Source: Enchytraeus crypticus (Eukaryota > Annelida > Clitellata > Enchytraeida > Enchytraeidae). Taken from it: a DNA stretch of 64,000 nucleotides. Made by a program: the position numbers and the translations under genes. Each line of letters opens with the position of its first letter. Position 1 is the first letter of the stretch. The stretch covers positions 686,001 through 750,000 of the forward strand of contig CAJHZI010000458.1 in NCBI GenBank assembly GCA_905160935.1. The letters run 5' to 3'. Positions 15,740-61,645 of the stretch are shown one piece after another. The notes below the pieces were generated by a model. It was given only the letters and a program-made list of their open reading frames with translations. It ran no database searches and had not been told where the DNA came from.

Positions 15740-16488
15740 TCAACTCTTCCAATTCAGTGTCCTGCAACTCACCGGGCTCGCTTTCCGCAACGCTATATAT
15801 CCTTTCGACGAATTAGCGGATTCTGCATGTTCAGACATAGGCCCCAGCGCCCTTCTCCCCTGTCGTATTCCGTGATAAACTCTGCAGAGAATGTCGAGGG
15901 GAAGCGTGACTGGGGACGGGGCATGCCGCAGATTGCAGGGAGATCTGAACAGATGGCTGGGTGAGGAGAGGTAGCCAGCCTGAGTACCAGAGGAGCTACC
16001 GCATTCGTCAGGCCTCTGTTTCATTGTCCTCTCGTGAGTCCCGTAGTTCTTAGCCTTCACTGTTTTAACGCGCTTCTGGTCGTTGTGATATGTGGCGACC
16101 CACGTTCGGTTCGTGAAAATTTCATTCATTATCTTACCACACTCTCTGACTCTTCAAGCCCTTCGACAGGCTGACTGCCTAAATTTCTCCGAGGATCGAT
16201 CAATGTCAGCCTCGATACCTGCCTCTTCCTACTCGACGGGAATTTATTCCTTCCATCCCTGGAGACACCCATGAGGGTCTCGGACTTCGAGCATCTAGGG
16301 GATAGGGCGTTGGTGCGCCGTGGAGGACAGGGCTGAGAGGCGGCGGAGAAACGCTCCCTGAGGCTGTAGCTCAGGACTCCCTGTTCGAGGCGGCGCAGTG
16401 AGATGGGCTTATAACCTCGGCCCACTGACTGAGTAGCCTCTGAGTCACTCTCCAACAAACCTAAGCTCTCTTTGTAGATAGCAGTCAC
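15740..16488 (-). other. 3' region of the retrotransposon, open but unrecognised
   Basis: Two overlapping open stretches (16488-16129 and 16129-15740) follow the RT ORF and overlap it and each other by a few bases. They have no recognisable domain and are rich in R, S and P. They are most simply a GC-richer 3' UTR, though a small second ORF cannot be excluded. Confidence 0.5.
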
Positions 16489-19400
16489 AGTTGGGTGGAA
16501 GTGAAGTCAGAGGTCTTGTAAGGGTTGTGAGCGTCATATTTGAATAGCGCAGATTGAGGAGGAGAAGCGTCTGTAGATGGACTAGTGGACAAAACTCTCT
16601 TAATCACATCACGTTTTTCCGTTGCATCAGCCTTGGCAAGACCTATGGCAGGTGCCGTAGGTTCGGGTTGAAGTTCATGAAGATCTTCAGAAACTAGTTG
16701 ATGTGCATGAAGAACTTCATTATCAGTCTGACCATGATGATAATATTCCGAACGGAGCTGTGCATGTGGGTAGACTGTTGAAGAATGGCGGGGTGAAATT
16801 AAATTCTGAGTGTGAGCCAAGCTGTTGGAGAGAGAAGTGGAACGAATTAGATAATCAGATGCAAGAGAGTTTTCAGTTGTAACATCTGTCCGATTTGCAC
16901 TAAAGGTCCCCCTTACACAAATGGAATTATACCTCCGTAGGCAGATTGAGAGTCTCTGTCTCAGGAAGCTGGTTTCGCGCTTATCTAATGTAGCGGCGGA
17001 TAAATGATGACCCAATGAAGAAATAAATTCCCTTCCTTTCTTATTCATAGGACCTAAAGTCTCGAGAGCAAGTGGTATGAAACAATAGCTACGAGACAAT
17101 TCATGATATTTGCTTATTTTTCTGTCGGCGGCTAGTTCAGCAGCTCCACCAGCTGACACCGAAGACACGTTTAAATAAGACTTAGCTACGGTATCTGTTA
17201 CTGTAACATCCCAAAGCAGAGATTTGCCACCTTTCCACGGGATCAGAGTAAGACCATCTGGTCTTTTGCCATCTGATCTAGAAATTCCAGTCGGTTCTAA
17301 TTTGGAGGGTATATTGGCCTTAATCAGGGCATGCCAAATTATGTGATTTATGTTGTGGTGCCTGCTCGATCTGCCAGCGCTCTTGCGGCAGGAAAGTCCA
17401 CGATGACCTTTAGGATCTACCAGACTACCGCACACACATTGGTGAATTTCAGAAAGCTTGGTGCCGAGACGAAGGCCAACTGTTATTCTGATAGATTCGT
17501 CGTCAAGGCGTAATCCGCAGGAGGCAATCGGAAGCGCGTGCAGCCAGTCATTACTGTGTGGAGACGAAAGTGGAATCAGTCGAGCTTTCTCTTTCAAGTC
17601 AGAAAGTGAGTTTAGAATCTGATTGAAGCTCTTCTTCACAATACAATCGTCCCAATTTCTTTGAATTCCAGCAGCAGGACCGACTGGAGCGCTGGCCTCG
17701 ACTTCACTGCACCACATTGACTCAGCAGCTTTGATGTACACAGGATCGATGGAAGAGACACTGCTTCTCAGTATTTCTTCTTGAAGGCTCCGAGTTGAAT
17801 TATAAGACGACAGGTAGGCTGACGGAGACAGTTGAGAAATACTGCGAATTCCGAGACCACCGTTCCGAACTGGAAGACTTGCTTGCTGCCATTGAGAGTC
17901 TGATAAATCTGCATTTATCAGGCTGCACAAACAGTCTGTTAAAATCTTGTCAATATTCTGAAGTAATGGGTGTTGAAAACAGGGTGAAGAACGCAGAGTG
18001 TGCATAACCTTAGGAGCGCTAACAGAGTAGCGCAGCAAGATCAGAGCATCGTGACGCTGTATATCCTTCAATCTTGCAGCTCTGTCGATCCTGTAGATCC
18101 GCAATCTCAATCTCTGTAGATCCGCAACATGTTTCTCAAGTTTAGTATCCATGGCATGGCCTACAGATAGAGAAGCACCTAAAAGTTCCGCATCAGTGAT
18201 TGAAGTTTTCATGAGAGATTCTAGGAGAGGATCATCATGAGTAATTGTCTTAGAGATGATCTCGCACTTGTTTAAATTGAGCCTCAGACCGAGCTCTGCC
18301 CCCTTAGACAAAATAATCCTAACATCATTAGCTACCGTACTATCTAAACCTCCGAGCGTTAGATCATCCAGGTAGCTTAGCCTGAAAGTACTTTGAAGTT
18401 GGGTAAGTACAGGTTGAATAGTTAAACAGAAAAGTAACGGGCCCAAAGGGTCCCCCTGTTAAACTCCTTCACTAGAGTGGATGAATTGATTCCCAAATTT
18501 GAGAAGGGTCGGTTGGCTATAGGCAGATGAACAAAAGCGGAATATCTCCGGCAGAAGTCTGTGAATAGTTTCTAACATCTTTGACCTACTTAGGCAGTTG
18601 AATGCGTTAGCAAAATCCAACTTAACTACAGAGAAACCCGGGGTCAAATTCGTTATAAACTGATGGGTAGCATGACTTGCAGCTTCACATCCACCTGATA
18701 CACCAACACCCAGCTGAATAGGACGAAGATAGTCAGAGATCTTTGGTAGAGCATACATGTTCACGCATTTAGCCGCTAGTCTCCTCCATGTATAACTTAT
18801 GCTATTGGACGAATATCACCATTCTTCTTCTGAATAGCAATTAGGTTGGCTCCGAAAAGTACTGGTCGTACTTGAATAGGGCAGCCACCCCGAACTAGGC
18901 AGTTAATAAAAGCAGTGATTGCATTAAGCAACTGAGCACCTACCTCCTTGCAAGAAACTAAATCTTTGAGATGTTGAGGACGTAAGCCATCAGGGCCGCC
19001 AGCGGTTCCGGCGGTAAAGCTCAGCACGGCCTTCAACACAATGTCTTCTTCGATTTGGATCGCAGGTGTTGGAGTTGATGAAAGATTGTTAGGAGACTCA
19101 GCTTTAGTAGGATGTTTATCCAACAGCCGTTTGAAAGTGTTTTCATTATTTTCCGCTAAAGAATCGTCCGAGCAGAGAATTCTGACCGCAGCTCGAATAT
19201 TACCTTCCTCTAACTTGGATTGCACTGAAGCGGAAAGAGACGATTTACAGAAAAGCCTTTTCTTTCCAAGGGCCTCCTCTTGAGGTACATCAATGTTGTG
19301 AGTAATCTGATCTTTAGAGAAACGATTACGAATGAGATTTGCCAAACTAACTTTGTTCCCCACCTTAGCAGGAACTGATAAGGTTGAGAAAGCAAAATTA

Positions 19401-20035
19401 GAGAGATTGTCCCAATTGACTAAATTCTCAGAATTTCTGGAAATGTTCGTAAGAATAGCAATCAGAGCTCTAGCACAGGGAGCTCTGGCAGACCTCGGAA
19501 TGTGTTTGATAATGGGTTGTGACAGCGTGGGATGGCGAATGGCAGAGGAATCAGTTGATGAGCCAGTATCATGGGGACATATGAGGTCAGAAGATTTACT
19601 GCTAGCAGCATTGGCGTTGAAACTACTGCTGCCAACTGCGTTGCTGACGATAGAATTTCTGCTGGCAGCAGAGTTCCTGCCTGTTCTGCAGCTTTTATGT
19701 TTACAATTAGCTGCGACATTTGAGCCTGCAGTGCAGTTGACTGTATGATCAAATTTAGCGTTGCTGCTATCTGTAAGGTTGTCTGGTTGGCTGGATATTG
19801 AGTGGTCAGGTGAAGGTATAGCACTACGGGAGTTGAGTGAAATGTTTTGAGCCAGAGGCGGCTGACCTGAACCCGGACAAGGAGACTTACGAGGACCGTG
19901 TTTATGAATAAGACCATCCCTCAAGTGGACTTGCCGCACAGCTAGACATACCCGGCAGACGCCATTCAGCTTACCAATGGTTTGAGATAAAGGCCAATTT
20001 TGACGAGACATTTTCAGATAAACTTCATTAATCAA
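16485..20035 (-). pseudogene. Retrotransposon ORF: zinc finger, reverse transcriptase (YLDD), CCHC, PD-(D/E)xK-like domain
   Basis: Segment 20035-18797 starts with a zinc-finger-like C-x2-C...H-x-H...C region (CRVCLAVRQVHL, HKHGPRKSPCPG), then a polar S/N-rich stretch, then RT fingers (DGLRPQHLKDL). Reading shifts by one frame near 18797-18799 and continues at SYTWRRLAAKC. RT motif A is KLDFANAFNCLSR; motif B reads GV-stop-QGDPLGPLLF, with an ochre codon at 18461-18459; motif C is YLDD at about 18368 in place of the common YADD. The C-terminal half has C-x-C-x8-H-x4-C (CVCGSLVDPKGHRGLSC), then KRPDGLTL...LLWDVTVTDT, a PD-(D/E)xK-like endonuclease core. The last codon is at 16488. One frameshift and one stop mean this copy is not autonomous. 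Confidence 0.9.
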
Positions 20036-20244
20036 GACGAGAGTGACTATGTTAGGTAGAATTATGGACTAGAATTATGAGACAGTTAGGTTAATCCTTC
20101 AGAATATAATACTCTATATCCTTAATTATAAATTAACGAGTCAAGAGATAAAGGAAGCAGTCACTAGGCTAATATTAATCAAGCATATTACTAAATTAAT
20201 AACGGTGTTTTTATTTAACAAATATAAATTTAAATATAATAACA

Positions 20245-22075: not shown

Positions 22076-22147
22076 TTATTTATTCTTTAAGAGATCTGGA
22101 ACGTTGTTGATCTTGAAATCGAGCAGCATTTGAGCATAGGCTTTACC
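22076..22147 (-). CDS. atuA-like: AtuA-like exon 18 with stop (residues 624-646)
   Basis: Acceptor [30 protein letters not shown] then KNK and TAA. AATAAA overlaps the stop codon and is too close to be the likely poly(A) signal. Confidence 0.92.
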   Translation of the reverse strand, partial: GKAYAQMLLDFKINNVPDLLKNK

Positions 22148-24756
22148 CTACACAATACATACACTAAACATTGCAGTGTATGTATCATAGGCTTTACCCT
22201 ACACAATACATACACTAAACACTGCAGCATATGTATCATTGGCTTACATACACTAAACACTGCAGCATATGTATCATTGGCTTTACAATACACAATACAT
22301 ACACTAAACACTGCAGCATATGTATCATTGGCTTTACAATACACAATACATACACTAAACACTGCAGCATATGTATCATTGGCTTTACAATACACAATAC
22401 ATACACTAAACACTGCAGCATATGTATCATTGGCTTTACAATACACGATACATACACTAAACACTGCAGTGTATGTATCATAGGCTTTACCCTACACAAT
22501 ACATACACTAAACACTGCAGTACATGTATCACAAGCTTTACCCTACGCAATACATACACTAAACACTACAGTACATGTATCACAAGCTTTACCCTACACA
22601 ATACATACACTAAACACTGCAGTACATGTATCACAAGCTTTACCATACATAATACTTACATTAAACACTGCATCACATATGTCATAGGCTTAACACTACA
22701 CAATTGCAGCACATGCATATATAAATATAAACACAACAGAGCTTGGCAGAAACATAATATAAAAATATGTAACACAGCTTATCACAATAAAAGCAGAGCA
22801 AATCGTAACACAAGAGAACACAACCAATTGATTAGAAACATAAAAATGGTGAAAAAACTACAAAACCTTAGAACAATATTACAATATTACACACAACAGA
22901 ACAATTCAAGTTGCCATCGTCATTGACTCCACTTATGGAGATATTGTTACGATATCCGACAGCTGATCAAAATGTGCGGGGTTCAAATCCTGGTCTTGCC
23001 AGTCACTGAGATCACTTTCGAGAGATAAAACTGAGGTTAACAACGGCTTTATTTTGAATGTCTCAATGGCGTAGGGGTAACGCCATGAAGTTTTAAATGA
23101 CAGATCCTGAAGTGAATTGAAACCTCCTGGGTTCGAATCCCAGCCGCGCTGATCTGAGAGTAAAATCTCGGGACATTTACAGGACTGGTTAAGGAAAATG
23201 GAATAAATTGCCTAACGGTTTAAACATGTTGTATTAAGAGTGATAGATATCAAGTGATAGATATCATAGTTGATTATTCACTACAATGCATGTTTACTTT
23301 AGCTATAACTCAAACGCGACAGCCACAGAATGTATGAACGAATGACAGGGGCTGTACCTGAGGATGAATGAAGAGAATGAGTGAAGAGAATGAGTGAAGA
23401 GAATGAATGAAGAGAATGAATGAAGAGAATGAGTGAAGAAAATGAGTGAAGAGAATGAATGAAGGAATGACATGAGTTATACCTGAGGATCCGCCCTGAG
23501 TGAGGCGATGCCTCCTCCACCCAGTGCCTGCTTTAAGACAAAGTTAAACGCATTGACACCTGGCAGCTCATATCTAAAATCAATCAATAAATCACTCGAT
23601 CAATCTGCGAGCAATATACTCAACAAACAACAATAAAAATAATATTATATATATATATATATCGCTCTTAGTGCACTGCCTACTGGCAGATCCTTGGTAC
23701 ATAACGCCTCTACTCATCTCTATCTTCCGTCTTTCCCCTTCATGTCCACATACGAGTGGATCCCTAAATGATCTATAACATTCCTTTTGATATACCATTA
23801 TTCTAGCGGGATAATAATAATCATAACAGTAGTAATAATAAAAGTAATAATAATAATTTGAACAGCAAATAGGAATCCCAGTTTAACGGGATATAAATAG
23901 ACTGTCTCAAATCCTCTCTGTCCTGCATCATATAGTCAATTCCCTATTTGAGACTTTTCCATTCGTTTACATTTTTGAAGCAATTTCTGGAGCCTAGGCG
24001 CTCACCAACCGAATGCTCTTTATGACGTTGGTATGGATCTTAGTGCTTTAGACGCCTTCTACGACACGTTCAGTTATCGGTTGGTCAATTTTTCAAACAA
24101 CCCGGACACAACACGGGGAAAATAATTAATACAGATGCCATAAAATACTCAATACACATGATATGCAATAACCAATATAGATGACACAAATAACCAATAT
24201 GGACGAGATCGTATAGAAAATGAAAAATGAAATAAACTAATCAACATATCACATGTGAAATCAATTTGTCAATACATAGCTGACCTGGTGACAAACTTCT
24301 GCGCTACACTGCTATCGTTGCATTCACCAGGTGTCAGCGGTGAGCCGTCACTGTTCTCAAACACATGAGAGAAATATTTAAAGACTGCCTCTGCAGTCAT
24401 CTGAGCTCTGAGGTACGGCAAAAATCGAGCATCTCTCGCTATCACTCCTGCACCATACCACAAAACATATTATAGGAATATAAGTAATTAAAACACAACA
24501 ACAACATCATCATCTTCCCTTATATCCCAGTTTAACCAGGGTCGGGAATTCCAATCGTTTAAATTTGTGCAACAATTTCAGGAGCCTAAGCGCTCACCAA
24601 CGTCACCAACCGATTGCCCTTTCTAACGTTGGTGTGGATCTTAGTGTTTTAGTCGCTTTCCTCGACACGTGCAGTCAACGGTTGGTCAATTTTTCAAACA
24701 CGGGGTCTTAACAAGGTCAGTAAAACAGAAAGATTAAGATTAAAAGAATAAGAGAC

Positions 24757-24795
<39 letters not shown>

Positions 24796-25534
24796 TAAGA
24801 AGAAGAAGAAGAAGACGAAGAAGAAGATTTAGAGTTACCAATGTTACACGTGTCGCCCTTATCACCGCTTCTCGCATAGGCCAGCTCCTCCAGTCTGAAG
24901 CTGAATGAACCGGTCGGAACCGGTTCCTCTGATTTGTTTACACTTGATGACGGCTCGGCTGAGGCGGCAGTTTGTTTAGGTTGGTGTATATCCACAGCTG
25001 ATTTCTCTCCATTCAAGTCCACTGTGACCTTGAAAAAATATCAGACATAATATAGTAGTAAATGCACACCAGCAAATAGAAAACACGATAGTAATTATAT
25101 TAAACAAAATCAAATGACCATAAACACAAATAAAACATATAATAATATATAACAAAACAATATAACATATTGTTTGAAAACAAATCTAACATATTTGCTT
25201 AGGCAAATAAATATCTGTAATCAACTATTTAACAGCTATATTTAAAAAGTATTCTTCACGACAGTTTAAAACTCTATCAATTTTTGAGACCTGTACTGTA
25301 CTGTAGGATCTATTTAAATGCAGTATTTTGCGTCAGTTGATTGAAAAAGAGATAAATTTAAATAGCAACAAGAGCAACATTCCTACATTTTAACTTAGAA
25401 CAGATAATTAAAGACACTCACCTTACAATCTGACTTCGGGTGAAGGAATGAAAACAGTTTTAAAACTGGAGATCTACAAAAAACAGGATTGTATATATAA
25501 ACACGTAATCATTGGAGTAATCATCTAGCAGAGG

Positions 25535-25572
<38 letters not shown>

Positions 25573-26461
25573 GAGCGAGAGAGCGAGAGAGAGATATGTG
25601 TTTATTTCGGGATCAATATGAATTACTGACAAGTAAAAATAGAAAAAAACATTTAAAAGAAATAAAATAAAAAAATCCCAGAAACACAGGGAATCAAACT
25701 AGCATCCAAGAGGGTTGAACTTGCTGGGGGGGGGTTCGCCTCTACTCTTGGCATATGTCTGACCCCCTGATTAAAGTTTTAATCCCCTCCAGTTAAACCC
25801 CCCCCTAGGACGAAACTCAGATTACCCCTGGCAAGCCATTGACCCCCCGTTAAACGACCCCCCTTTGAATAATTTAACAAATCCAAGTCTGGAACCAACT
25901 ATTTAGAAATTAATTATCATTAGTGGTTAGTGTTCTTCTTCAGTGTACAGCTGTACAGGTTCAAGGTACATATTCATACTCAAAGTTTGCCTTCTCGCTC
26001 TATAAAAGCACTCCTTAGATCAACAAGTTAATCGCTTCACAAAGTCTATGCCTTATCCATACCTTATGTAGCCTATAGCTTGGGAAAAGTATGGCTTCTG
26101 AGGTGGTTTCCCGTTGCCTTCCTAAGTGATTAGTAATCATTTAATAAAAATTTATCACCCAGCAGTGAGCGATTTTCACCGTGCTCGGTCCAGAACAACC
26201 GAAGAATAGAAAAACCGTAAACCGCTACAATAGGTAAGAGGCTACTGAGAAAGAAATGAGGAAATCTACGTTAAACCACCTCAGAAACCATATTATTCTC
26301 AAGCCATATTATTTTGAACACATTATAGGCTAAGTGTGTGGAAAAGGCTTAGCCTTTTGTGAATGGATAAACTCAGTAATCGATGAAGTGCAATTTATAG
26401 AGCCTGAAAAGCGGCATGTGAGCAGGAATATGTACCTTAGACCTGCTATTAGGCAAACTAC

Positions 26462-26497
<36 letters not shown>

Positions 26498-29413
26498 ATC
26501 AGCTTGGAGAATCTGAGAGAACAATGCTTGGAATATTCATTTAGCATCCAGTAATCAGGTATTAGATATCATTTAGAATAAATACATTAATCATCTAGAA
26601 TAAATACATTAATCATCTAGAATAAATACATTAATCATCTAGAATAAATACATTAATCATCTAGAATAAATACATTAATCATCTAGAATAAATACATTAA
26701 TCATCTAGAATAAATACATTAATCATCTAGAATAAATACATTAATCATCTAGAATAAATACATTAATCATCTAGAATAAATACATTAATCATCTAGAATA
26801 AATACATTAATCATCTAGAATAAATACATTAATAGTTTACAAAGTTATTATTCATTAATATGTAGCTTTTAGTCAAAAGTCATAATAAGCAAAAATCGTA
26901 GTAATAGACAATGTCGAATCTAAACAGCACACATAATGCCAGTAAAATGATAACTGATTACATTTTCTAAAATTTAAAGTGAACAATTGAAGTGACAATT
27001 ATCATCGTGAATATTTTATTTTATAACACTATAATGCATATTTGTTTAACTCACACTTTTGGTCGACCACCAACGATGGCACATAAACCTGGTGCTGTTG
27101 AAAGTTAACACACAAAACAGCTGCTTACAATAATCTAGCAACTGAACGTACCAAGAGCTAATACACTGTATATTCACCATCACCCTTGAATCCAAGTTTA
27201 GATAGCGTCAGGATCAGAAAGTTTTGTAACAATTTCCTACGACGTCCCTGACATCATCCTTGTATGATGAAACGAACGTTAAACCTTTAATATTATTAAT
27301 TTCTGTAGCCTAGGCTCTCAGCAACTGAAAGCCCTTTCTGACATTGGTTTAGATCTTAGAGCTTTGTCGCCTTTTACGACACGTGCAGTCCACGGTTGGT
27401 CTATTCTTTAGCAACCCGGACACAACATGGGTAATTATTTTATACCTTGCTTCTCCTCAGCACATTTCTTTCGCAGATTGGTCTGGGTGAATTGATCTGT
27501 AGTGATATGTGCTGTTGAGGACGTCCCTTACATCATCCCTGGATGAGGAAACGGACGTTAAACCTTTATTATTATTATTATTATTATTACTATACTGTTA
27601 TACTGGTTCAGGTCCTCATGAAGACTATGGCTGTGCGAAGCTTCAAAGAGGTGTATTTAAGGGGTGTAACATCAAGGTCTAAACCTTGATGTTAAAGCCA
27701 TTACAACTAAAATTATTTACTTGATTTCAGAGGCTCGCTTTCGTGCTTTGTGAAATGGCAGGCCCACTGTAAATCTTTCTATTAAAGAGCTTCTAAGCTC
27801 AATGCTACTGACCAACAAGCTATGAAGCTCTCACTAGAGTTCTGCCAAGTGGCAAGTCCAAGCATAACCCACAAATGGTGCATTTTTGTAACATATCATT
27901 CTTAAGAACTATTGATTTTTGATTTGTCAAACATTTATGTAGGTCTTTACTTAACATCATCATCATCGTCATCGTCGTCGTCATCCTCATAATCATCATC
28001 ATCATCACCACCACCACCACCACCACCACCACCCACCACAACCACCACCACCACCACCATCATCATAATCATAATCATCATCATCATCATCTTCTGCTTC
28101 TTCTTCCCTTGAATCCCAGTTTAACTATAGGTTTTGGGATTAAAAACTTTTATAGCGATTTCTGGGGCCTAGGCGCTCACCAAAAGAATGCCATTTCCGA
28201 CGTCGGTTGCGGTTTGGATCTTATCGCTTTGTAGCCTTTTACGACACGAACAGTCCACGATTGATCTCTTATCCAGCAATCAGGACACAACACAGGTAAA
28301 ACGTTAAGGCATTAAGTGCCATTAACTTAACAAAACTATAAAAATCTTATCTAACATTGCCATTCAATATCATCATCATCACCACCACCACCTGGTTCAG
28401 GATCCGTCTCAAGCGCTACCAGGAATGAATCTCTGCAGAGGAAGTTGGTGCCATTTGAATCGTTTCCGTACGGGTCATGGTAGATGCAGCGAAAGTGAGT
28501 TTCGCTGGGTATTTGTGATTCACTGCTTTGCGACTGCTGTCAACCTCAAAACATGAAACATATCGTTGAGGAGTGCCCTCTAACCCGCCTACCGGGTGGA
28601 CTGTCTACGCTAAGTTGCCTTACAAGTGAAGCAACTTTCTGGATTAAACGCAAACGCTAAATAAATTTTAAAAATATTCAATATCACAGCCTGTTGACTA
28701 CAGACCCATGCCTGTGCCAGCAGGCGCTATCTCTCTGGCCAGCAGCTCCAGGGCTTTCTTGTCCTCATGATGAACAGCTAGCCAAGCTGTGCACTCGCGT
28801 ACCTACACGCACACACATTAACCCAAGCTGTGCACTCACGTAACTACACGCACACACAGGTTAACCCAAGCTGTGCACTCACGTACCTACACGCACACAC
28901 AGGTTAACCCAAGCTGTGCACTCACGTAACTACACGCACATTAACCCAAGCTGTGCACTCACGTAACTACACGCACACACATTAACCCACGCTGTGCACT
29001 CACGTACCTACACGCACACACATTAACCCAAGCTGTGCACTCACGTACCTACACGCACACACATTAACCCAAGCTGTGCACTCACGTACCTACACGCACA
29101 CACATTAACCCAAGCTGTGCACTCACGTACCTACACGCACACACATTAACCCAAGCTGTGCACCGATGTGTGTGTCTAGTCATAGATTAATATTCATATA
29201 GACAATCACGAACATACTACATACATATATCATTATTACATGTGCTAAAAGTGTGTCCGAATATAAATGAATGTATACATAAGTATATATATTTATATAT
29301 ATATATTTATCTTTATATATTCATATAAATTCGCACGCACTTTAACACGCGTATATATACACACACAAACACACGTACACACACACAGACACACGCGCGC
29401 ACACACACACACA

Positions 29414-29472
<59 letters not shown>

Positions 29473-29514
29473 CATATATAAAATTATATATACATGTATA
29501 TATATAAATAAATA

Positions 29515-29572
<58 letters not shown>

Positions 29573-31667
29573 GCATGCAGCTACTTATACACTCACACAT
29601 AAGAATGCACGCAAAGTACATGCAAACTTTTTCAAACCCTATTTGTATAAGCTATTTGCTAACTCTAATCTTCTAAAATGGCAGGTCCAAGGTACAAAGC
29701 ACTAAGATATAAACCAACGTCAGAAGAGACATTCGGTTGGTGAGGCCTACACGTGACGGCAAAATTTAGCCATCTACATGTAAGAGGTACAACATTAAAT
29801 GTATCTAATTATGCGTACGAGTAATTGTAAAACTGCTTCAGTGACATTTATTCAGCAGCAACTCGTGATGTGAGATCAAGATGGCAGAGAGAAGAAGCTA
29901 GCACTAACGACATTAGAGTTAGCCTGAGCTCCGTAGCTGTCCTCAGCACCAAGTATCTGAGTATGAACTCTCGTGAAGTCTTTCATGCCCAACACACTGT
30001 ATATACCCCGCACTCTACACACAACAATGAGTACTTCATATTCAACACATGTACAGTCTGGGGCAGAAAATAATAATCCCCTACCGAAATCTCAATAACT
30101 TCAACAAAACTAGAAATATTTCACCAAAAATTTCGGAGCTTCTAGAGGAAGAATGTCTGCGTATATTCTGAAAATTTTGTGAAAAAAATCTTCAAAGTAA
30201 CAAAATTATAGCGACTCTACGAAAAAAGTGCTAAAATCAATTTTAACAAGGTTTTTGAATAGTCAGTCATTCCTTTCAAGTAATTAATGGTCCTGAAATG
30301 GGCCGTATACTTACATGTATGTTTTCGAGTCATCTATTCAGTAGACGCTCAAAATGCCCACCCTCGGCTAGAATGCATGCCTGCAGTCTTGTCGAAATGC
30401 AAGAATAGGTCGATTGATTGTCTCTTGCCGCCAGGCCAGGCTTGTTATTGTTATTTATTGTTGTTATAATTATTTATTTATTATTGTCATTTTGCTTATT
30501 GTTGCCTCAGTGCTGCAGCAGCCTAGGCAGGGCCTACTGAGACAGATGATTGCTGGAGCTGTAGTGCATCTGAACTTTGGAGCTTGAAGCATATTCATAC
30601 ATTTCAGCTGCTCTAACTTATTAGAGATTTCAAATTATTTATTCTGTTATAATTATTCCAAATTTTGAAGAAAATTCCCGGTACCTTTAATTAAGCCTTG
30701 TTAAAATTGATTTGCTCAGGAAGGAAACGGGAAACCACCTCAGAATCCATACTTTTCCCAAGCTATAGGGTACGTAAGGTACAGATATAGTATAGACTTC
30801 GTGAGAGAATTACTGTGATCTAAAGAGTGCTCTTATGGAGCGAGAAAGCAGACTTTGAGTATGAATATGTACCTTGAACCTGCCACTTGGTAGTGCACTG
30901 AAGTGAAGAAAATTGATTTGAGCACTTTTTTCGTAGAAACGCTGTACGTTTGTAACTACTGAATATATTTTCACCAAATCTGCAAAATATATGCGGAAAT
31001 TCCTATTCTAAAATTTCCGAAAATTTTATTTGAGTATTTTTAATATCTCTCTCTCTCTCATTCTTTCTCTCTCTCTCTCTCTCTCTCTCTGCTTTTCTCT
31101 TTGTCCCTTTCTCTCTGTCTCTCGATGTAGCATCCCGACAGGACCTCTGGATGTACTTATTCAATACATATTGGTACCCTAACGAGCACTCCACTGATCA
31201 TCAGTTGATTCTACAAATCTTTTAAACCATATTTGTGAAAGCCACTTTCTCACTGTAATGTTCTGGAAATGGCCGGTCCAAGGTACCATTCGGGTAATCA
31301 TATATATGTACGGGTAATCTATATATATCAACATCATCACATCTCTACTCACCGCTTAATGATGGAGTCACAGGTCTTCCTCGCTTTATCAGCCGCCCTG
31401 GTGCCTATCACGACACACACAGCCGTTAGACGATACCCGTCAGCATATGTAGCAGACACCTTGTAGTCTTCTGATGGTCTGCTGCCCCGAGCACCCTGTA
31501 CTGACACTGCTTCACCAACACTGTCTACTCAATCAGCCAATCAATCAATCAATCAATCAGCCAATCAATCAATCAATCAGTCTGATTGTCTGCAGCCCCT
31601 AGCACCCCGTACTGACACTGCTTCACCAACACTGTCTACTCGATCAGCCAATCAATCAATCAGTCAG

Positions 31668-31698
<31 letters not shown>

Positions 31699-34600
31699 GC
31701 CAATCAATCAATCAGTCTGGTGGTCTGCTGCCCCGAGCACCACGTACTGACACTGCTTCACCAACACTCTCTACTCAATCAATCAACCAATCAATCAATC
31801 AGTCAGTCTGATGGTCTGCCGCCCTGTGCACCGCGTACTGACACTGCTTCACCAACACTGTCTACTCAATCAGTCAATCAATCAATCAGTCAGTCAGTCA
31901 ATCAATCAATCAATCAATCAATCAGTCAGTCAGTCAGTCAGTCAGTCAGTCAGTCGGTCGGTCAGTCTGTCAGTCTGTCTGTCTGTCTTAGTCGCCTTCT
32001 ACGACACGTGCAGCCACCGGTAGGTCAATTCTTCAAACAACCGCGACACAATACGGGGAAAACCTACTAATCAATTAGTAAAATCATAATCCAAACCATC
32101 GATTCATTAATTTCAAAAATACATTAGAAACCAATGTGGTGTCCAGGTTGCGGAATAACATAACAACCGTGAACTGCACGTGTCGTAAAAGGCGACACAA
32201 CACTAAGAAATCAACGTCAGAAAGGATATTCCGTTGGTGAGCGCCTAGGTTCCAGAAACTGCAACAAAATTTTCTAATCCCGACACTAATTAAACTGAGA
32301 TTAAGTTATTTTGAAAACATTACTTTAATTGAAATTCGAGGGAAGATGAGGATGATGACGACTGTAAACAAAACAATCAAATAGGCAGAGGGAAAGCAGA
32401 GAAATTAAAGTTCCTAAATTATTCAATACACTTAGTTAATGTTTAGTTGTTACACAAAGAATCGCTGTTAGATATTTTTCGATGTCGTTTTATGCTAGGT
32501 ATTTATAATGATTCTCACATGGTTACAAAACCATTTTTGTGCGGCTAATAAATAAGAAATTAATAATTAATTTAAAATGTTGCCCACTGATGAAAAAAGA
32601 ACTGCATACTCACAACTAATGAGATACAAGATGTATCTCATTAGTATTCAAGGGAATACCAATGATGATATAAGAGATCTCTAGAGATCATATAGGAGAG
32701 AATGTCTATGAGATACATAGTATAGGAGAGAATGTCACACATCAGGACATTCCTCTATCTATGAGATACACAGTATTGGAGAGTGTCACACACCAGGACA
32801 CGCCTCTATCTATGAGATACACAGTATAGGAGAGAGTGTCACACACCAGGACACGCTCTATTTATGAGATACACAGTATAGGAGGGTAAGGCATACACCA
32901 GGACACGCCTCTATCTATGAGATACAAAGTATAGTAGAGTGTGTCACACACCAGGACACGCCTCTATCTATGCGATACATCGTATAGGAGAGAATGTCAC
33001 ACACCAGGACACGCCTCTATCTATGAGATACTAGCACAGGAGAGTGTGTCACACACCAGGACACGCCTCTATCGTGACGTGGCTGAAGTCACACGTGACG
33101 TCAGGCAGGACGTATCTAGACGGGTCTCCTATCTCGTAGACGAGTTGCTCGGCAACGGTTGCCGGGGTAACCAGACCTCCAGTGTTGGGCGGCTTCGTTA
33201 GTATGAAGCTTCCGTCAGATGAGACGTCTACTATAGGAAACCCAATGTTCTCCCTGTCAACAACAACAATAACATAACACACACTGCAGAGATACCCAAT
33301 GTTCTCCCTGTCAACAACAACAACATAACACACACTGCAGAGATACCCAATGGTCTCCCTGTCAACAACAACAACATAACACACACTGCAGAGATACCCA
33401 ATGTTCTCCCTGTCAACAACAACAACAACAACATAACACACACAGCAGAGATACCCAATGTTCTCCCTGCCAGCAATAACAACAACAACGTAACACACTG
33501 CAGAGATACCCAATGTTCTCCCTGCCAGCAACAACAACAGCATAACACACACTGCAGAGTTACCCAATGTTCTCCCTGTCAGCAACAACAACATGACACA
33601 CACTACAGAGATGTGATCATTCATGATGATATCTATCACTTTAATACCACATTTTTAAACCGACCGTTAAAAGCTGTTTTTTATATTTAGCCTATGCGAT
33701 ATCCAGATAGTTGCTTCACTTGTAAGGCAACTTATCGTAGACAGTCCACCCGGTAGGCAGGTTAGAGAGCACTCCTCGACGATATGTTTCAATCAGTTTC
33801 ATATTTTGAGATTGGCCGCAGTCACAAAGGGGCGAATCACAAATACCCCAGCGAAACTCACTTTCTCTGCATCTGCCATGACCCGTACGGAAACGATTCA
33901 AATGCACACATACCGATCGGCGGTCGGATATCCTACCACATCGCCACCTGCTCCAGCCAGCTTATAGCAGTTAAACAGTTTGTCATTAATTCCAAAGTTA
34001 CCCGTCCTGCGAATGTTCTAGATTTAACTCGCTGATCATCCAGAACAGAAATTTATGCCATGACCAAAGGAGCATAGACATTACGACCAAGATTCTAAAC
34101 AGTAGCTTCCTGCTTCTCAAACAAGTGTTCTATCCATTTGGCTATTCAACCGGTAAAATAATTTTACTACTTTACAGACAACAAAGATTAAGAAAATAGG
34201 CAATAATTTCTTAATATCGAAAATTCAATGAGACACACATTTTAACAGTTAAATCCAGAAACAATTACACAGCAATAGATGTAGATAATCATGACAATGG
34301 ATAAAGTGTATTTTAAAGTCTTGGGTATTTGTGAGGGGATTTGGCAGAATCGATAGAGTGTTCGTCTCGGATATCCAATGGCTCAAGTTCAAAGTCCAGG
34401 TAAGTCAACTAAAAGAAAGAACGTAGCCTCTTGAACGCAACAAAGACAACTTATCTACTGTAGATCCTATCTTTCAATTTTTTATTCTATTCTATTCTGG
34501 GAGCTAGATTTAATTGCCGCTGTATACGGCAAAGATATAATAATAAACAAGGAAAGGTAAAAAATGGTTCCTTGTAAAGTAGTCTCGAAGACAGGTGAAC

Positions 34601-35434
34601 AGCCCGGGCATTGATATAGAAATGTTGTGTCATTAAGTAATTAATCAGTATCACATTTCGAAAGCATATCAGCGTCGGACAAGCACTAAACTTGAACCCT
34701 GCACCACTGATCATGTAGCAATATGCTAGATTGAAATGTATTGATTTGCTGTAAGCTTTTAAACTACTTTATATGGTTTATTTGTTTCTTTTGGCTATGT
34801 TTGTTCAGGGCACACGTCAGTGCCTTTGTGGCTGTCGTGTCCTTTTTCACTTTATCTCATGTATTTCTTGCGTATGATGTAGCCCTAAAGTGAAATAAAC
34901 ATGATTCAATTCAATCATCAGTCGGTTATCCTAATCGATCATGTCACTGGCCCAGTCTAGATATTGATTGATTAAGAGATTGTAATCATTTCAGCTGTAG
35001 ATCATAAGACAAATAGACACTAAATGTAACCTTTCAGACAGTGATGTCTATGATCTTGCCCAAGACCGGTATCAGTGGAAATATAAGGTAAAAGAGGCTG
35101 CTCTGGTGTCCACAAAGTGACGTTACACAGAGAAAAGAAGAAGAAGAGATCATAAGAGAGACAACAACAGCAGCACATACCAGCCCTGCACTGTGTGCCA
35201 GTCAGTGAAGATACCTCCAGTAGCCTGTGCTCCACACTCTATCAGATGACCTGCTAGACTGTGATCAATCAATCAATCAATCAATTAATCAATAACCACT
35301 GCTCCACATTCTATCAGATGACCAGCTAGACTGTGTATAATCAATAAATCAATCAATCATCTCAATCAATTAATATCATGTGCTCCGCATCCTATCAGGT
35401 GATATGCTAGACTGCGTACAATTAATCAATCAAT

Positions 35435-35478
<44 letters not shown>

Positions 35479-35949
35479 AGCAATCAATCAATTAATAACC
35501 ATTGCTTCACACTCTATCAGACGACCTGCTAGACTGCGTACAATCAATCAATCAATTAATTAATCAATGAATCAATAAATAAATAAATCAATCAATCAAT
35601 CATTAGCAATCAACCAATTAATAGCCACTGCTCCACACTCTATCAGAATAAAAGCTAGACTGCGTACAATCAATCAATCAATCATTAACAATCAATCAAT
35701 TAAAAACCACTGCTCCACACTCTTAATAGCGGTTAATTTAATAAAATACCACACTTTATCAATACAATAGTTCTTAAATTTAGGCTTAACAATTTCCTAA
35801 TATTACAATGATGGGCTTTACTGTTGACAATTAACTAACATTACCACAGTTCTTAATAACAAATCTAACCTGCCAGCAGCCAGCTTGTCGTAGTCATCGT
35901 ACGCCCAGTTAAACTAAGCACAATAATTAAATATACTTGTTTATATATG

Positions 35950-38550: not shown

Positions 38551-41500
38551 GATTAATGTCATAACAACCTAATCATCTAATTATAGGACAGAAAGTAAGG
38601 CCTAGTGAAATAGGTATCGTGAGAACGATACGATTCCACTACTCCATTTGCAACTGTCAGACTAATGATTTTTTGATTTTTTAAAAATTTTTTTTGTTCC
38701 TTTCGTTACACACATGACATACCGCATGTGCTACATGGTTTCCTTTCTTGGTTTCTGTTTTTGTAGTTTTCAGTATTTCCTCCATTCCTTTCCATGGTTA
38801 TTAGTAATCGTTGCCTTTTGTTGTCGCATCAATTGCAGCCGGCGCGGATTTAAGAATAACCTTTCAACACCCTCGGGATGATAATGTGATTTTAACATCA
38901 AGTTCAGAAGCCCAAACAGCTTCCATTCAAGACGGGAGCTTCAAGCTGCCTACCGACCCTAATTAAACTGGGATTTAAGGGAAGATGATGATGACGATGA
39001 AAGATGAACTAAATTTTAAAATCTATTAGTAAATTTTCATTTCTTTATACGTAAATTCAGAAATTTATTTCCGAGTTTCGAATTTTCTGTGTATCTTCTG
39101 AGAAGCTGATATGTTTTGGTACAGATTGCTTCTGCTAGTAGTTCTCCTCCTCATGGTATCTACATTGATTTATTAATTCATCATCGTCGTCATCAGATGA
39201 GGAGTAACTAACATCAAACAATCAAGACTTCTCATGAAACACACTAATGTTCAATAATTGGACTTCTTGTCGTTCATTGTCCAAAGTGAGGACACGAATG
39301 TGAGTACGAACGTTCATTTCCCTGCTTCCATATCACTCTCTTGTCCGTACTGATCTTCCTCAAATTTGACCATGATCGAACTTGAAATTTGTCATCAACT
39401 GCAGAATTTTCTGGCATGGATGAGGAAAAAGAAATGACGAAAGGCTTGAGCTTCAAGTAATTGAATGCATAAGGTCGATGACGCAGACACCTCTGCTACT
39501 TAGAGCTAACAATGAATTCTCAGATTTTATTGGATATAGTTATCAACACTGCATGGATATTTTGGATGGATACACTATGGATACAAATGAACGTCTTATT
39601 TTTTCCGACTCTTTATGCCATGACATAGCACATTGATGTAAACAGCCATGCTGATAACATTTACCATGACTAAAATATTTACAATAGGTACGCAGTCACG
39701 CTACTGAAATATATAACCTGATACTATTATTTACCCTAGATATGCAGTCATGCTGGTAACAGTTGATGGTAGGGGTTGCCCTGAAAACATTTCTCTCACA
39801 TTTCTTCTTTCCAACTCAGACTTCTGCAAAACGTTTAAATTAAATTACCATAAATATAGCAATACGTACTGAATTCATACAGGGAATGCATTAGATGGTT
39901 CTGGTGGCCCCTTAAAGCAATGCATGGGCCCTATGAATACCAATGGAGTTGACTTTATAAATGGCATGGGCAGGCTAATCTAAGAGTTAACAGATGATGA
40001 GTGAGATATCTATTTTCAACGGCAGAGGCTTTCAATAGCTTTTGAAAGAATCAATGCTGACAGCTTCAGTAGTTCAACTGGATGAACAAGTGTCATGTGA
40101 TCATCCTGGGGCTGATTCCAGCCAAAGATTTCTCTATGATGTTCCTCCACAAAACTCAATTTTCGTCATTTCCTCGATATTCATTCTTTTTCTTCCTTCT
40201 GTTCTTCCGTAAATGCTAACTCCAGCAGCCTGAACAAGAGTAGGTACACGTTATGATAATATTCACATCATTGGAATTTTCTGGATACCATACAGTTTGA
40301 CAGGAATACGAATTCGCAGGACTTGCAAAAATGGTGTTCCATCGAATTATTTCACACAGACCTTACAGGAATTAAGATCAGTACTCTGTTCAGCTATCAA
40401 TTTCAGATCCTGAGGTGAATTGAAACCTCGCGGTTTCGAATCCCAGCCGCGATGATCTGAGAGTAAAATCTCAGATATACACTGGACTGGTTACATGGAA
40501 AATGGTCTAAATTGACTAATGGTATAAACATAAGGTATTATAAAAAGTGATAGATATCAACATAGTTGATCATTTCACTATAATGCATGTTAACTTTTTT
40601 TATCAATGAAAGTATCACCTGTGAATAATTAGTAATATTTCCGAGTAATTAAGATTCTTACACAGCAGAATATTTATAAACCCCTATATGGTCATATTCA
40701 GATCATTGGAATGATTTGAATATCAAGGTCATAACGTTTGATATGAATACGAATTTAAGAGAGTAATTAAGATTTTTCCACAGCAGAACAATAAACAGCA
40801 GTACCACCCGACTAAAAGAATTAAAAACACAGTAATACTGACACCTTTAAGGAATTGTACTAGAGATGGGAATCGAACCGAACCCGAACCGAACCCTAAA
40901 ATCTGGAATTTTGATCGAACCGAACCGGAACCCAGACTCTGGCCGAACCCGAACCGAACCCGAACCCAGACTCTGGCCGAATCCGAACCGAACCCGAACT
41001 TTGTCCAGACCGAACCGAACCGATCTCTTGAAGTTCCTTTCTCCTTCGCCAGCTCCAGGAGAAAAGAACAATTTTCTTTTCAGCTATTTTTCAAAGTCTG
41101 CATTAAGATATTATGGAGAATGTTTGACATTATATAAGGATAGTAAGAACAATACACATATATATTAGTTTTTGTATTTACATGTCTTACAGTATCTAAC
41201 AGCATATATTCAGGTAAGGCTGGTTCCGACACAAATTTTAAAATTAATAGTAGAGAGCGATACAAAGGAATGGTAGCGTTACAAAGGAGTGGTAGCTGGA
41301 AGCGAGACTGGTCTACAGAAGATAATGGCTAGTGTGAATGATACGGGATTGAAATATGGAATCTTCATTCCATATTTCAATCCAGTAATTAACATCAAAA
41401 AGACAAAAGTGATGAGAGTATCCCATAATAATCTGAAAATTCTTGACTCAATCTAGGTGGATCTGTTCTTATTAAATTCAAATTATGAAATTTTTTAAAT

Positions 41501-55988: not shown

Positions 55989-58900
55989 CTACAACATACA
56001 ACAATCAATCAATCAAAAATCAATAGAATAGAGAAATCAGTCAGAATGTCTGTAAATCTAAATTCTCAATTAACCAATCGATGAACAAATTTAGGAAATA
56101 AAAAAACGTGCACTGAGAGAGAGAGAGAAGAGTAGAGGTGTTATATACCATGGATCTGCCAGTAGGCAGTGTAATGAGAGAGAGAAGAGTAGAGGTGTTA
56201 TACACCATGGACCTGCCAGTAGGCAGTGCAATGAGAGAGAGAGAAGAGTAGAGGTGTTATACACCATGGACCTGCCAGTAGGCAGTGCACTGAGAGAGAG
56301 AAGAGTAGAGCTGTTATACCATGGACCTGCACTAAGAGAGAGAGAGAGAGAGAGAATAGTAGAGGTGTTATATACCAAGGACCTGCCAGTAGCCAGTGCA
56401 CTAAGAGAGAGAGAAAGAGAGAGAAGAGGAGAGGTGTTATATACCATGGATCTGCCAGTAGGAAGTGCACCGAGAGAGAGAAGAGTAGAGGTGTTATACA
56501 TCATGGACCTGTCAGTAGGCAGTGCACTAAGAGAGAGAAAGAGAGAGAGAGAGAGAGATCAATACCTGACATCGCCATGGCTGCTTTAAACTCCGCCTTC
56601 AGAGTCTCGAACATTTCCTCAACGCTCTCAGCTCCCTGTAAGTACAGTTAAACACACTTCTAACAGAGTGTATAATAATATAGCACCTCTTCAGCACATG
56701 TTGTTTTAGATCGTTGTGGGTGAATCGATCTGTGGTGACATGTGACGGGGGGACGTCCTTGATATCATCCTTGTATGAGGAAACGGACGTTAAACCTTTA
56801 TTATTATTATTGCTATTAATATACGTGTTACACGTATAATAATAATAACACGTTACAGTGAAACGATTAACCATGCTAATATATTTCACTTTTAATACCA
56901 CATGCTACATTTCAATATCATCATCACGTTCCCCTAATCCCAGTCTAACTAGGGTTATACAGTCTAACTAGGGTTATAGGGTTTTACGGGGTTCGTTTAA
57001 AAGTAACTACATTTAAATTATTAAAATTGTAAATAAATGATAAACATTGTTACCCCAACAGCTAGAGCATAGAGCACAGGACGTCCAATAAAGACAGCCT
57101 GAGCTCCCAGAGCGAGAGCTTTAAGGACATCTGTACCCGTGCGAAACCCTCCGTCAACATAGACCTCACACCTCCCCCTCACAGCTAATACCACCTCTCT
57201 TAGTACATCCATCTGTTCAGTAATCAATCAATCGCAATTAATAAATAAAATAGATAAATTAATTAATCAATCGTTAGGTCGGCCCGTCGGTCGCTGGATA
57301 GATAGATCATCGATCAATATAATCAAATACATCAATCAGTGTAGGCCTAATTAATTCAATTAACCATTCAATCAATAGATCGATTAATCAATCAATCAAT
57401 CAATCAATCAATTAGACCTAATCAGTTAGTCAGTCAATCAGTCAATCAATCAATCCTTAAATGCAGAGATTATCAAATCTATGCAAGCGAGATATTCTTT
57501 ATTGTGGGTAACCAATCTATATCAAATACAATTACTAGCCGTCTGAGGCTAACTTAGTTAACATTACTGTTTTAATTTTGAATAAAATAATTCCTAGTAA
57601 ATTATAGATATATATTCACGCCATGAATTATAATCTAATACTGAAATATCTTTCTCTGGGATTTAAGGGAAGATGATGATAATGATTGAAATCTCTTTCT
57701 TTCTCAGTGCACTGCCTTCTGGCAGGTCCAAGGTATATTACGCCCCCACTCTTCTTTAGCTTCCGTTTCCTCTTCATATCCACATATAAGTGGAACTTTA
57801 AATCATCTAGAAATACTCATTCTTGTTGTTATATACCATTTTCTTGGGGATTCTGCTTATGACGAGGTAGGCCCCATATGTCTTTCTCGGCTTCAACTAA
57901 CATTTACTGGGCAGGGGCGTTACTCCCTGAGAAAACTATCCTGTTTACCCAGAACTTTAAAGAATAATGAAATAAATATTATTAACATTAATATATTAAA
58001 TAAATATATATATTAGGCTTCTTTGAAATATTATTAAAATATTTTCTCTCTAATAATGCTGGAGGAATAGGATTAATCTTACTGTCTTCAAAAGTGAAGA
58101 CCAACACAAGTTTGGTAGTAGGAAGGTTTGTAGCTTTGATGTTTTGATTTCTGTATTTTATAAAATGCATTATAATATATGTGCATATATATTCTATACC
58201 TATTTATTGCAGACTAGTAGAAGCCTCCCCCCCTAGGTTCTCGCCTAAAGTCGTTAGACTATTTGTTCTTTATTTTCTCTATTTAGTTCAACTGAGGATG
58301 TCGGTTCTAATTTTGTTCTAGAAATATAATAATTTCTAGATTTATTTAACTATAAGTTTTATTGGTCACAATTACATTATTTAAAAGAGAAGCAATAAAC
58401 CGAAAAAAGCTCAACGAGTTTCTCTTAGTACTAGACCTTGTACAAAATTGTTATGTTGCACATAGTACGGCATATCGTACTACGTACGATATGCCGTAGG
58501 CTTAGTTGTTGGTTTTGCTATATTTCATCATCATCATCATCTTCCCCTGAATCCCATTCTAACTAGGGTCGAGATAAGACAATATTGAAGCAATTTCTGG
58601 AGCCTAGGCTCACCAACCGAATGCCCTTTCAGACGTTAGTGTTGATCTTAGTGCAATGTCGCCGTTTACGACACGTGCAGTCCACGATTTGTCTATTCTT
58701 CAGCAACACGGACACATCACGGGTACATCCTTCTTATAGCAAAAATTAAAAAATTCATTTAATTTATTTTGCTTTTGCGGTTCTAGTTACCTCCTTCCTC
58801 CTCTCTTTGATCATTATGAACAGTTGCTTTTAGATAAAATAGATTGCAACTAGCTTAGATTTAGAATAGTCTTCCATAAACATGGCTTTTTATTAAAGCA

Positions 58901-59123: not shown

Positions 59124-61645
59124 TTCCCTTGAATCCCCGTTTAACCAGGGTCGGGATACGAATAGAGTATCTCAAATCATCTCTGTCCTATACCACATCA
59201 TCAGCCAATCCCCACTCGAGACCTCCATTCGTTTAAATTTTTGTAGCAATTTCTGGAGCCTAGGCGCTCACCAACCGAATGCCCTTTCTGACGTTGGTAT
59301 GGATCTTAGTGCTTTATTCGCCTTCTTCGACACGTACGGTCACCGGTTGGTCAATTCTTCAAACAACTCGGAAACATGGGAAGAAATACACTGACACTCT
59401 TCAACAATATTGAATAGTGTTACAAATCAACATTATTGAATGGTGTTACCATTCAACTTTATTGACTGGTGTTAGAAGTACACTAACAACATTAAATAAT
59501 AATTCCTCAGGTACTAACGAAAGTACTTGAGGAATTATTATTGAGTGATTTTAGTGAAAATGCCGCTAACGAGTTAACGAGAACCAGCTTCGTCAAATAT
59601 TTCATAAATCATGTTCTGAGTTTTTTAACAGTTAAATGAGTTAACACTCACAGCTCCTGTTGTGCTGCCGACCTGGCGGCCGCCATGATTGGACACCAGT
59701 ATCCCAGCAACACCCGCATCTACAGCCAGCTCTGCATCTTCACCTGATCAATCAATCATTAGATCAGTCAATGAATATTCCGGTAATCAATCAATCAATC
59801 GATTGAAAAATAAAAGGATCAATGAATTAATTAATTAATTATACAATATAAAAGTAAGTCAGAGTCTGACTATGATAAACCGTTTTATATAGGCCCTATA
59901 CCTGGTTGGCTTATATTTCAGTACAGGAAATGAACGCTTATATTAAAGACACTATGGCCATGATGCACTTGAACCGCACAACACTACAAAATTCTTATCG
60001 GTAAATAGTAAAAAACATAATAAATGAAGAAGTTTATTGAAGAAGAAACGATAATAATAATAATAATAATAATATAATAATAATAATAATAAAGGTTTAA
60101 CATCCGTTTATTCATAGAAGGATATTGTCAGGGACGTCAAAAAATAACGTGAAAGGCTGACAGCTGTAAATTCTGCTTTAAGATCGTTTGTGTGTAAAGC
60201 TGTAAAACTGATGTTAACGTCAGTTTCATCTCTCGATATCAATGACTGTGGCGTCGAGCCCTGAATATGTACCCCGCATATACTGATCCGCAGCCAGATA
60301 TCTTACCGAGATCGCCACTGACGCGTCATCGTGGCATCGCCATGGTCCCTGATGATGATATTACTCAAAGACATTTTAACATGTGGCGCCACGCTTATTA
60401 GATAAGGGCATTAATAGCTACCACGTCTAATTGAAACAAATTCCTGAACGATTAACCACAGCAACTAACATAACAATGCGAAATAATAGCTGTACATTTT
60501 AATAAAACGATTATAATAGAAGCAATAATACTAATAATAATAATGTCGATAATAATACTACTTATAAATTAATAACTACAGGCTATTTTTTATTATCGTT
60601 ATTTGTTTAATTTGTTTTTAAATACCCCGCGTGTGAAGAACCCGAGGTTTGATAAAAAACGATTCGAGCAATACGTGCTGAATCGCCGCCCGGCATCACA
60701 TATTGTTATTATTATTGTTATTTACTACAATAATGACGATAAAAATAATAATAACAAATAATGATAATAATAACGATAACAATGCTGTAAAATTACTGTG
60801 TCTATCATCAATTCAATTTAAATGGTATGTAGTTTCTTAACTGTGTAGGCCTAGTTAATTGATTGATTGATGTCTTGCTGCATTGATTACCACAGAGAAT
60901 GCCCTTGACGATGATGGGCAGTGACGTAACAGATTTGAGCCACGTGACGTCACGCCACGTGGCTCTGGAGTTAAACAGCTCTCCAGTGATCTGATACTGA
61001 GCGGTCGTATACTGTTTATCAGTAGGAACCACGTTCTTGAAGCTAAGTACAGCAATTTTACTTAAATGTCAAAAGAGAAACACTGAGTAATACAGACAGT
61101 AACTGATAAATAACCACGTTCTTGAAGCTAAGTATAACAATTTTATTTTTTATATATTTAGAATGTCTCAAATAGCGCAACGGTTAAGGGTGTAGATAAC
61201 GTCATGAAGTTTTAAATGACAAACCCTGAGGTGAATCGTACCCTCGTGGGTTCGATTCCCAGCCGCGCTGATCTGAGAGTAAAATCTCGGACATTCACTG
61301 GACTGGCTACACGGAAAATGGACTAAATTGCCTAACGGATATAACATGTGGTATTAAAAGTGATGGATATCAACGTAGTTGATCATTTCACTATAATGTG
61401 GGTTATTATTATTATTATTATTATTATTATTTAAATGGCACAAGAGAAATACTGAGTAATACAGAAAGTAACTTATGAACAACCACGTTCTTGAAGCTAA
61501 GTATAACAATTTTATTTAAATATCACAAGAAATATACTGACCTCCGGTTTCATAGGAAGCAATGAAACTTTAATGACAAGTCATGAGTAATACAGAAAAT
61601 AGAGCTACGAAAAACGGAGACTTTCCAAAAACTCAGTTTCTCTCT

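Follow-up and report, generated by a model that had tools for sequence, protein, structure and literature searches.

We analyzed a 64,000-nucleotide stretch of the Enchytraeus crypticus genome (assembly GCA_905160935.1, contig CAJHZI010000458.1, positions 686,001 to 750,000), here called the window. Its minus strand carries an AtuA-like gene (22076-49420) and, nearby, a gene for an FMN-dependent dehydrogenase (HAO-like). A reading made from the letters alone, the sequence-only reading, had pointed to tandem arrays that span exon edges of the AtuA-like gene. We rebuilt this gene, examined the arrays, and looked for others like them in sampled genes of the assembly (524 Mb, 802 contigs).

Rebuilt from 49420 down to 22076, the AtuA-like gene has 18 exons and encodes 646 amino acids, with an AtuA domain and an AtuA ferredoxin-like domain. 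All 17 introns are GT-AG, and their phases are consistent. Pfam matched the protein to PF07287 (AtuA; E = 1.5e-139, profile positions 1-436 of 437) and PF23544 (AtuA ferredoxin-like; E = 1.5e-32). With so nearly complete a match, continuity of the protein is the basis for our exon starts. The only unsure site in the model is the exon 9 donor, where the modeled GT scores 2.5 and a GT 8 nt downstream scores 9.9.

Arrays at the splice junctions of the AtuA-like gene

Arrays were located with Tandem Repeats Finder (TRF), and junction copies were counted as ungapped matches on the intron side in which at least 17 of 24 positions agreed. The seven junctions named in the sequence-only reading, the acceptors of exons 8, 9, 10, 12, and 18 and the donors of exons 9 and 17, all have TRF arrays and copies. 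Spanning the exon 8 acceptor (exon 35181-35258), an array at 35228-35703 contains three copies, each with an AG. The exon 9 acceptor (exon 33065-33253) begins an array of 51-57-bp units (33240-33612) that includes 14 nt of the exon and is repeated in six intron copies, all with an AG. Three copies precede exon 10 (31353-31520), in an array at 31470-31916 whose unit takes in about 51 nt of the exon. At exon 12 (28706-28802), a 41-bp array (28782-29163) with 21 nt of exon in its unit provides eight copies with an AG, and there are two additional weak matches that lack it. Exon 18 (22076-22147) has the most, with ten copies, five retaining the AG, in a 51-bp array at 22123-22704.

The two donors are less regular. 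A 53-bp array (32705-33073) covers the exon 9 donor region, with the uncertain donor inside its first unit; five of its six copies have a GT. At exon 17 (23483-23573), TRF detected an array at 23360-23475, and the ungapped count gave no copies. blastn found one 39-nt copy (85% identity), an outer donor copy at +125 separated from the donor by 13-bp repeats (23358-23490). A possible decayed copy at +52 from the exon 5 donor (39735; 28/40 matches, 39660-39745) was missed by the other three copy tests and was not counted. Another array, in intron 13 (26568-26833), consists of twelve nearly perfect 22-bp copies whose sense unit contains an acceptor-like TTCTAG/ATGAT. We rejected it as a junction array, as no exon adjoins it. 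A sequence resembling its unit, CTAGATGATTA, occurs upstream of exon 14.

Many decoys resemble working acceptors. In the AtuA-like and HAO-like genes together, 27 of 32 decoy acceptors keep the AG and 14 of 32 equal or exceed their own authentic site in score, so that local consensus alone cannot always pick the authentic acceptor. Such decoys might buffer or confuse splicing, as the sequence-only reading suggested. Since 22 of the 27 AG-keeping decoys would introduce a stop, accurate acceptor choice should matter.

A copy of part of this gene on contig C125 (149665-149898) bears on which acceptors were used. It is 235 bp long, lacks introns, and is identical to the gene at 217 of 235 positions (92%). 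It runs from base 9 of exon 6 (8 nt inside) through exons 7 and 8 to the first 21 bases of exon 9, and all three exon joints are those of our gene model. We therefore do not regard C125 as a second AtuA locus; it is an intronless spliced fragment of exons 6-9, apparently a fossil of spliced RNA that returned to the genome as DNA. According to this fossil, splicing at exons 8 and 9 once passed over the decoys and joined at the exon-proximal acceptors. The fossil is silent on exons 10, 12, and 18, where protein continuity points to the exon-proximal acceptors.

Junction copies in other genes

The pattern is not restricted to one gene. In the HAO-like gene, two copies of the exon H2 acceptor (exon 60891-61042, minus strand), which the sequence-only reading had not reported, lie at -85 and -454 (60891-61510 with the exon). 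An array that abuts the donor of exon H5 (56117-56568) was not counted; its units are a dispersed repeat of the TGCACTGCCTACTGGCAGGTCCA type without exon sequence.

We also examined 15 genes outside the window that were not chosen for arrays, which weigh more than the window because the arrays were the reason for choosing the window. Six stretches with ALDH-family genes contributed 30 exon matches and nine with CCT/HSP60 genes contributed 50. The ALDH set is what remained of 32 tblastn matches outside L008/L009 when two with stops were dropped, and some entries are pieces of one exon. For CCT, 50 of 57 matches were kept; five lay in long, apparently intronless frames and two partly outside the fetched stretches. 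The ends of these matches only approximate true exon ends.

By eye, junction-spanning upstream copies were present at 6 of 30 ALDH and 15 of 50 CCT exon starts (21/80 in total), and a clear copy was present at one of 80 exon ends, that of a CCT exon in L043 (Fisher P = 3e-6). Nine of the 15 genes showed the pattern, nearly all at acceptors; in the ALDH gene on C71 it occurred at four of five matches. Genes L025, L029, L031, L039, L041, and L045 showed none. Automated calls gave 22/80 starts and 2/80 ends outside the window and 28/103 starts and 4/103 ends over all exons (Fisher P = 4e-6 to 9e-6); another automated pass outside the window gave 23/77 starts and 1/80 ends. Local copies that include coding sequence were detected for 30 of 103 exons, and all 30 were called at an edge, with single alignment pieces beginning up to 18 bases inside the exon. 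Anchoring at exon edges, as originally proposed, applies mainly to acceptors.

The two ways of calling differ in a few places. Three starts (L030 4207, L038 2414, L040 2479) and one end (L044 7110) called automatically were deemed microsatellite only and excluded by eye, while two ALDH acceptors called by eye (L026 near 7793, L030 near 2747) were missed by the automated count. L043 6894 was a start in one automated pass and absent from the other; an array abuts its end, possibly a donor case, and we counted neither.

To compare these frequencies with chance, we scored control points in two ways, per base and with each array counted once. The once-counted null was judged fairer, since a junction represents one ancestral position only. 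Outside the window, 18.8% of intron points had a local copy per base and 5.2% when each array was counted once. Against the latter, the 21/80 exon starts are enriched about five-fold (P = 5e-10). The 1/80 exon ends are below the per-base rate (P = 1e-6) and no different from the once-counted rate (P = 0.08). Only 2 of 88 exon-interior points had a local copy. In the window, a spanning copy was detected at 7 of 44 junctions, the detector missing exon 8, where the intron part is a simple repeat. Per base, 57 of 427 noncoding points (13.3%) had one, or 26 of 231 in gene introns only (P = 0.22); with arrays counted once, the rates were 4.7% (P = 0.004) and 3.6% (P = 0.0009). An excess of arrays at junctions over chance, in the window and in the sampled genes, is therefore clear when each array is counted once and not per base.

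Several other features were recorded. Long reverse-transcriptase-like open frames, recognized by reading, occupy 16485-20068 of the window on the minus strand and probably belong to a retrotransposon. Cpn60-family matches with equal scores lie in 894-aa open frames on C259 (219813-222410) and C400 (245545-248142), possibly reflecting a duplicate contig or contamination. Contig C802 is mitochondrial, with 13 protein frames, named by reading, on one strand in the order cox1-cox2-atp8-cox3-nad6-cob-atp6-nad5-nad4L-nad4-nad1-nad3-nad2 and room for the rRNA genes beside trnV. The order agrees with the annelid order given in the available parts of two reports (PMC2639372, PMC4866719). On C802, trnR and trnH are adjacent, whereas in the portion of PMC4866719 describing it the clitellate control region lies between them.

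Origin of the junction arrays

Unit geometry was obtained for 25 of 26 acceptors; C71c had no ungapped copy, and the L044 acceptor near 248 was excluded. Units are 17-139 nt long, with medians of 73 nt for the whole, 21 nt for the exonic part, and 38 nt for the intronic part; the exonic part ranges from 4 to 79 nt. The smallest lengths may be registers of simple repeats. Modulo 3, the lengths divide 9, 10, and 6, with no bias toward multiples of three. As this is so and 22 of 27 decoys bring a stop, we rejected in-frame expansion, in which decoys would serve as spare coding sequence.

Simple sequence is common at these intron ends. In the 150 nt before an exon start, sense (TTGA)3 or a rotation is present in 20 of 101 cases; after exon ends it is present in 2 of 101, and in intron windows in 23 of 529. 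The antisense form is present in 3/101 (all ALDH), 3/101, and 1/529, respectively. Upstream and intron windows together thus contain 43 sense and 4 antisense tracts, and donor-side windows 2 and 3, a strand bias that points to a possible role at the RNA level. TTGAT is compatible with the general consensus for branch points. In an ALDH exon on C105 with a single duplication, the breakpoint in the exon reads TTGA, as does the intron tract, which, as one case, is consistent with microhomology.

We consider it probable (about 0.7) that these are "mirage" minisatellites, in which tandem duplication of 3' splice-site segments produced arrays that extend into the upstream intron, with the exon-proximal copy working and the earlier copies acting as decoys. 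The structure itself, its recurrence in the HAO-like gene and in the genes outside the window, its acceptor polarity, and past use of the exon-proximal acceptors at exons 8 and 9 are the observed part. Each duplicated segment would hold the intron 3' end, its AG, and between a few and about 80 bases of the exon start. The duplications most likely took place at the DNA level and at the 3' ends of introns, by replication slippage, unequal exchange, or duplication through microhomology. These ends would be slip-prone, since many of them are simple sequence, for example sense-strand (TTGA)n. A complete acceptor in the last copy would make such duplications tolerable, and surviving arrays would be those whose innermost copy holds one. 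Since the consensus scores of many decoys are as high as that of the authentic site, the spliceosome may choose the last copy through exon definition. The outcome would be growth of existing introns, with no new ones. This agrees with the part of the earlier proposal in which local tandem duplication over exon edges, each time with a different unit, recurred and lengthened existing introns, a view our results support.

One alternative is chance, as tandem arrays abound in this genome and some would cover splice junctions. Counted per base, local copies at intron or noncoding points (11-27%) are indeed about as frequent as at window junctions (16%) and outside exon starts (26%), and the window had been selected for its arrays. 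Chance does not predict 21 starts against one end, however, and together with the once-counted comparison this makes it quite unlikely. Tandem arrays are also error-prone in assemblies, but here the copies mostly differ (aligned pieces are largely 72-97% identical) and the pattern appears, with one-sided polarity, on ten contigs; an assembly artefact is extremely improbable.

The earlier suggestion that the introns themselves were born or relocated by tandem duplication of AG/GT-containing exon sequence has precedents in the model for amphioxus globins (PMC3087553) and in a potato RdRp gene (PMC4974935), as far as the sections consulted describe them. Our results do not support it for the AtuA-like gene. 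When the upstream donors (exons 7, 8, 9, 11, and 17) were compared with the acceptor-side arrays of the five introns, 17-22 of 40 positions matched, within the range of shuffled donors (up to 22-25), so that the two splice sites of an intron do not both appear to come from a duplicated segment. The exonic part of the unit, at 4-79 nt, also argues against it, and we consider intron birth very unlikely here. Selection might instead have kept the decoys, whose repeated branch point, tract, and AG would then reinforce weak acceptors or have a regulatory part in splicing. The retained AGs, the high-scoring decoys, the acceptor polarity, and the sense-strand bias of (TTGA)n would all fit. Yet, by our reasoning, such AG retention is about that expected from roughly 90% identity without selection, the unit lengths and stops do not favor function, and most exon starts have no decoys, so we regard functional decoys as unlikely. 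Lastly, the acceptor polarity could reflect an RNA-templated process, in which reverse transcription of a lariat-3' exon intermediate starts slightly within the exon and runs to the branch point, and the short product is inserted in tandem at the locus it came from. The median unit has the size this RNA-templated origin predicts, and the exon 6-9 fossil indicates that spliced RNA can return to DNA in this genome. We nevertheless rate it highly improbable.

Several points weigh against the mirage interpretation. The per-base null is not clearly rejected (outside the window, P = 0.06 by eye and 0.01-0.04 automated; in the window, P = 0.37), and the strength of the enrichment therefore depends on the once-counted comparison. 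Where a seed copy is conserved, junction arrays would stay detectable for longer, which could inflate the enrichment, perhaps two-fold. Six of the 15 outside genes have no junction arrays, and some of the by-eye calls are weak (C71c, gapped only; L044 near 248, 81% over 31 nt). In the AtuA-like gene, the count of seven spanning arrays includes exon 17, where the 13-bp array ends 8 bases before the donor and the sole spanning outer copy has 8 exon bases. (TTGA)n is missing from the units of exons 9, 12, 18, and H2. Finally, tolerance does not by itself explain the polarity, as duplications of donors ought to be no less tolerable; acceptor polarity is not fully explained.

Relation to known systems

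If about a quarter of acceptors sit behind their own copies, this genome offers a natural experiment in which to see how the spliceosome distinguishes the authentic 3' splice site among near-identical decoys, and how introns grow. The polarity is a constraint for any model, which must say why donors are spared. Gene prediction in such genomes can also put exon starts in decoys. By its title, Zhuo et al. 2007, cited in PMC3087553, concerns human introns that came from tandem arrays.

Large intronic minisatellites have been described in an annelid gene, in intron 1 of an earthworm metallothionein (PMC12783039); their units are about 180 bp, and the passages available do not place them at a splice junction. 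We found no earlier report of junction decoy arrays in an annelid in the literature searched, whose coverage mostly excluded subscription papers. In the potato RdRp gene, an intron was gained through a boundary-crossing duplication (PMC4974935). That step is common to both cases, but in potato it led to a new intron and here to a larger existing one.

The closest likeness is to the mirage minisatellites of amphioxus, reported in Adh3, the globins BflGb6 and BflGb9, PGBD5, and troponin C, for which an intron-gain model was proposed in the parts of the reports we consulted (PMC3087553, PMC3902484). In both genomes, the tandem unit spans the exon-intron boundary, and both 5' and 3' boundaries are affected here too, although donors are rare (exons 9 and 17 and the CCT exon in L043). 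Unlike in amphioxus, where those reports, as far as consulted, show both boundaries, the arrays here have a strong acceptor polarity; and, unlike the single genes of amphioxus, they involve about a quarter of sampled exon starts in an annelid rather than a cephalochordate. The kind of array is therefore already known; its presence in an annelid, its prevalence, and its acceptor polarity look new.
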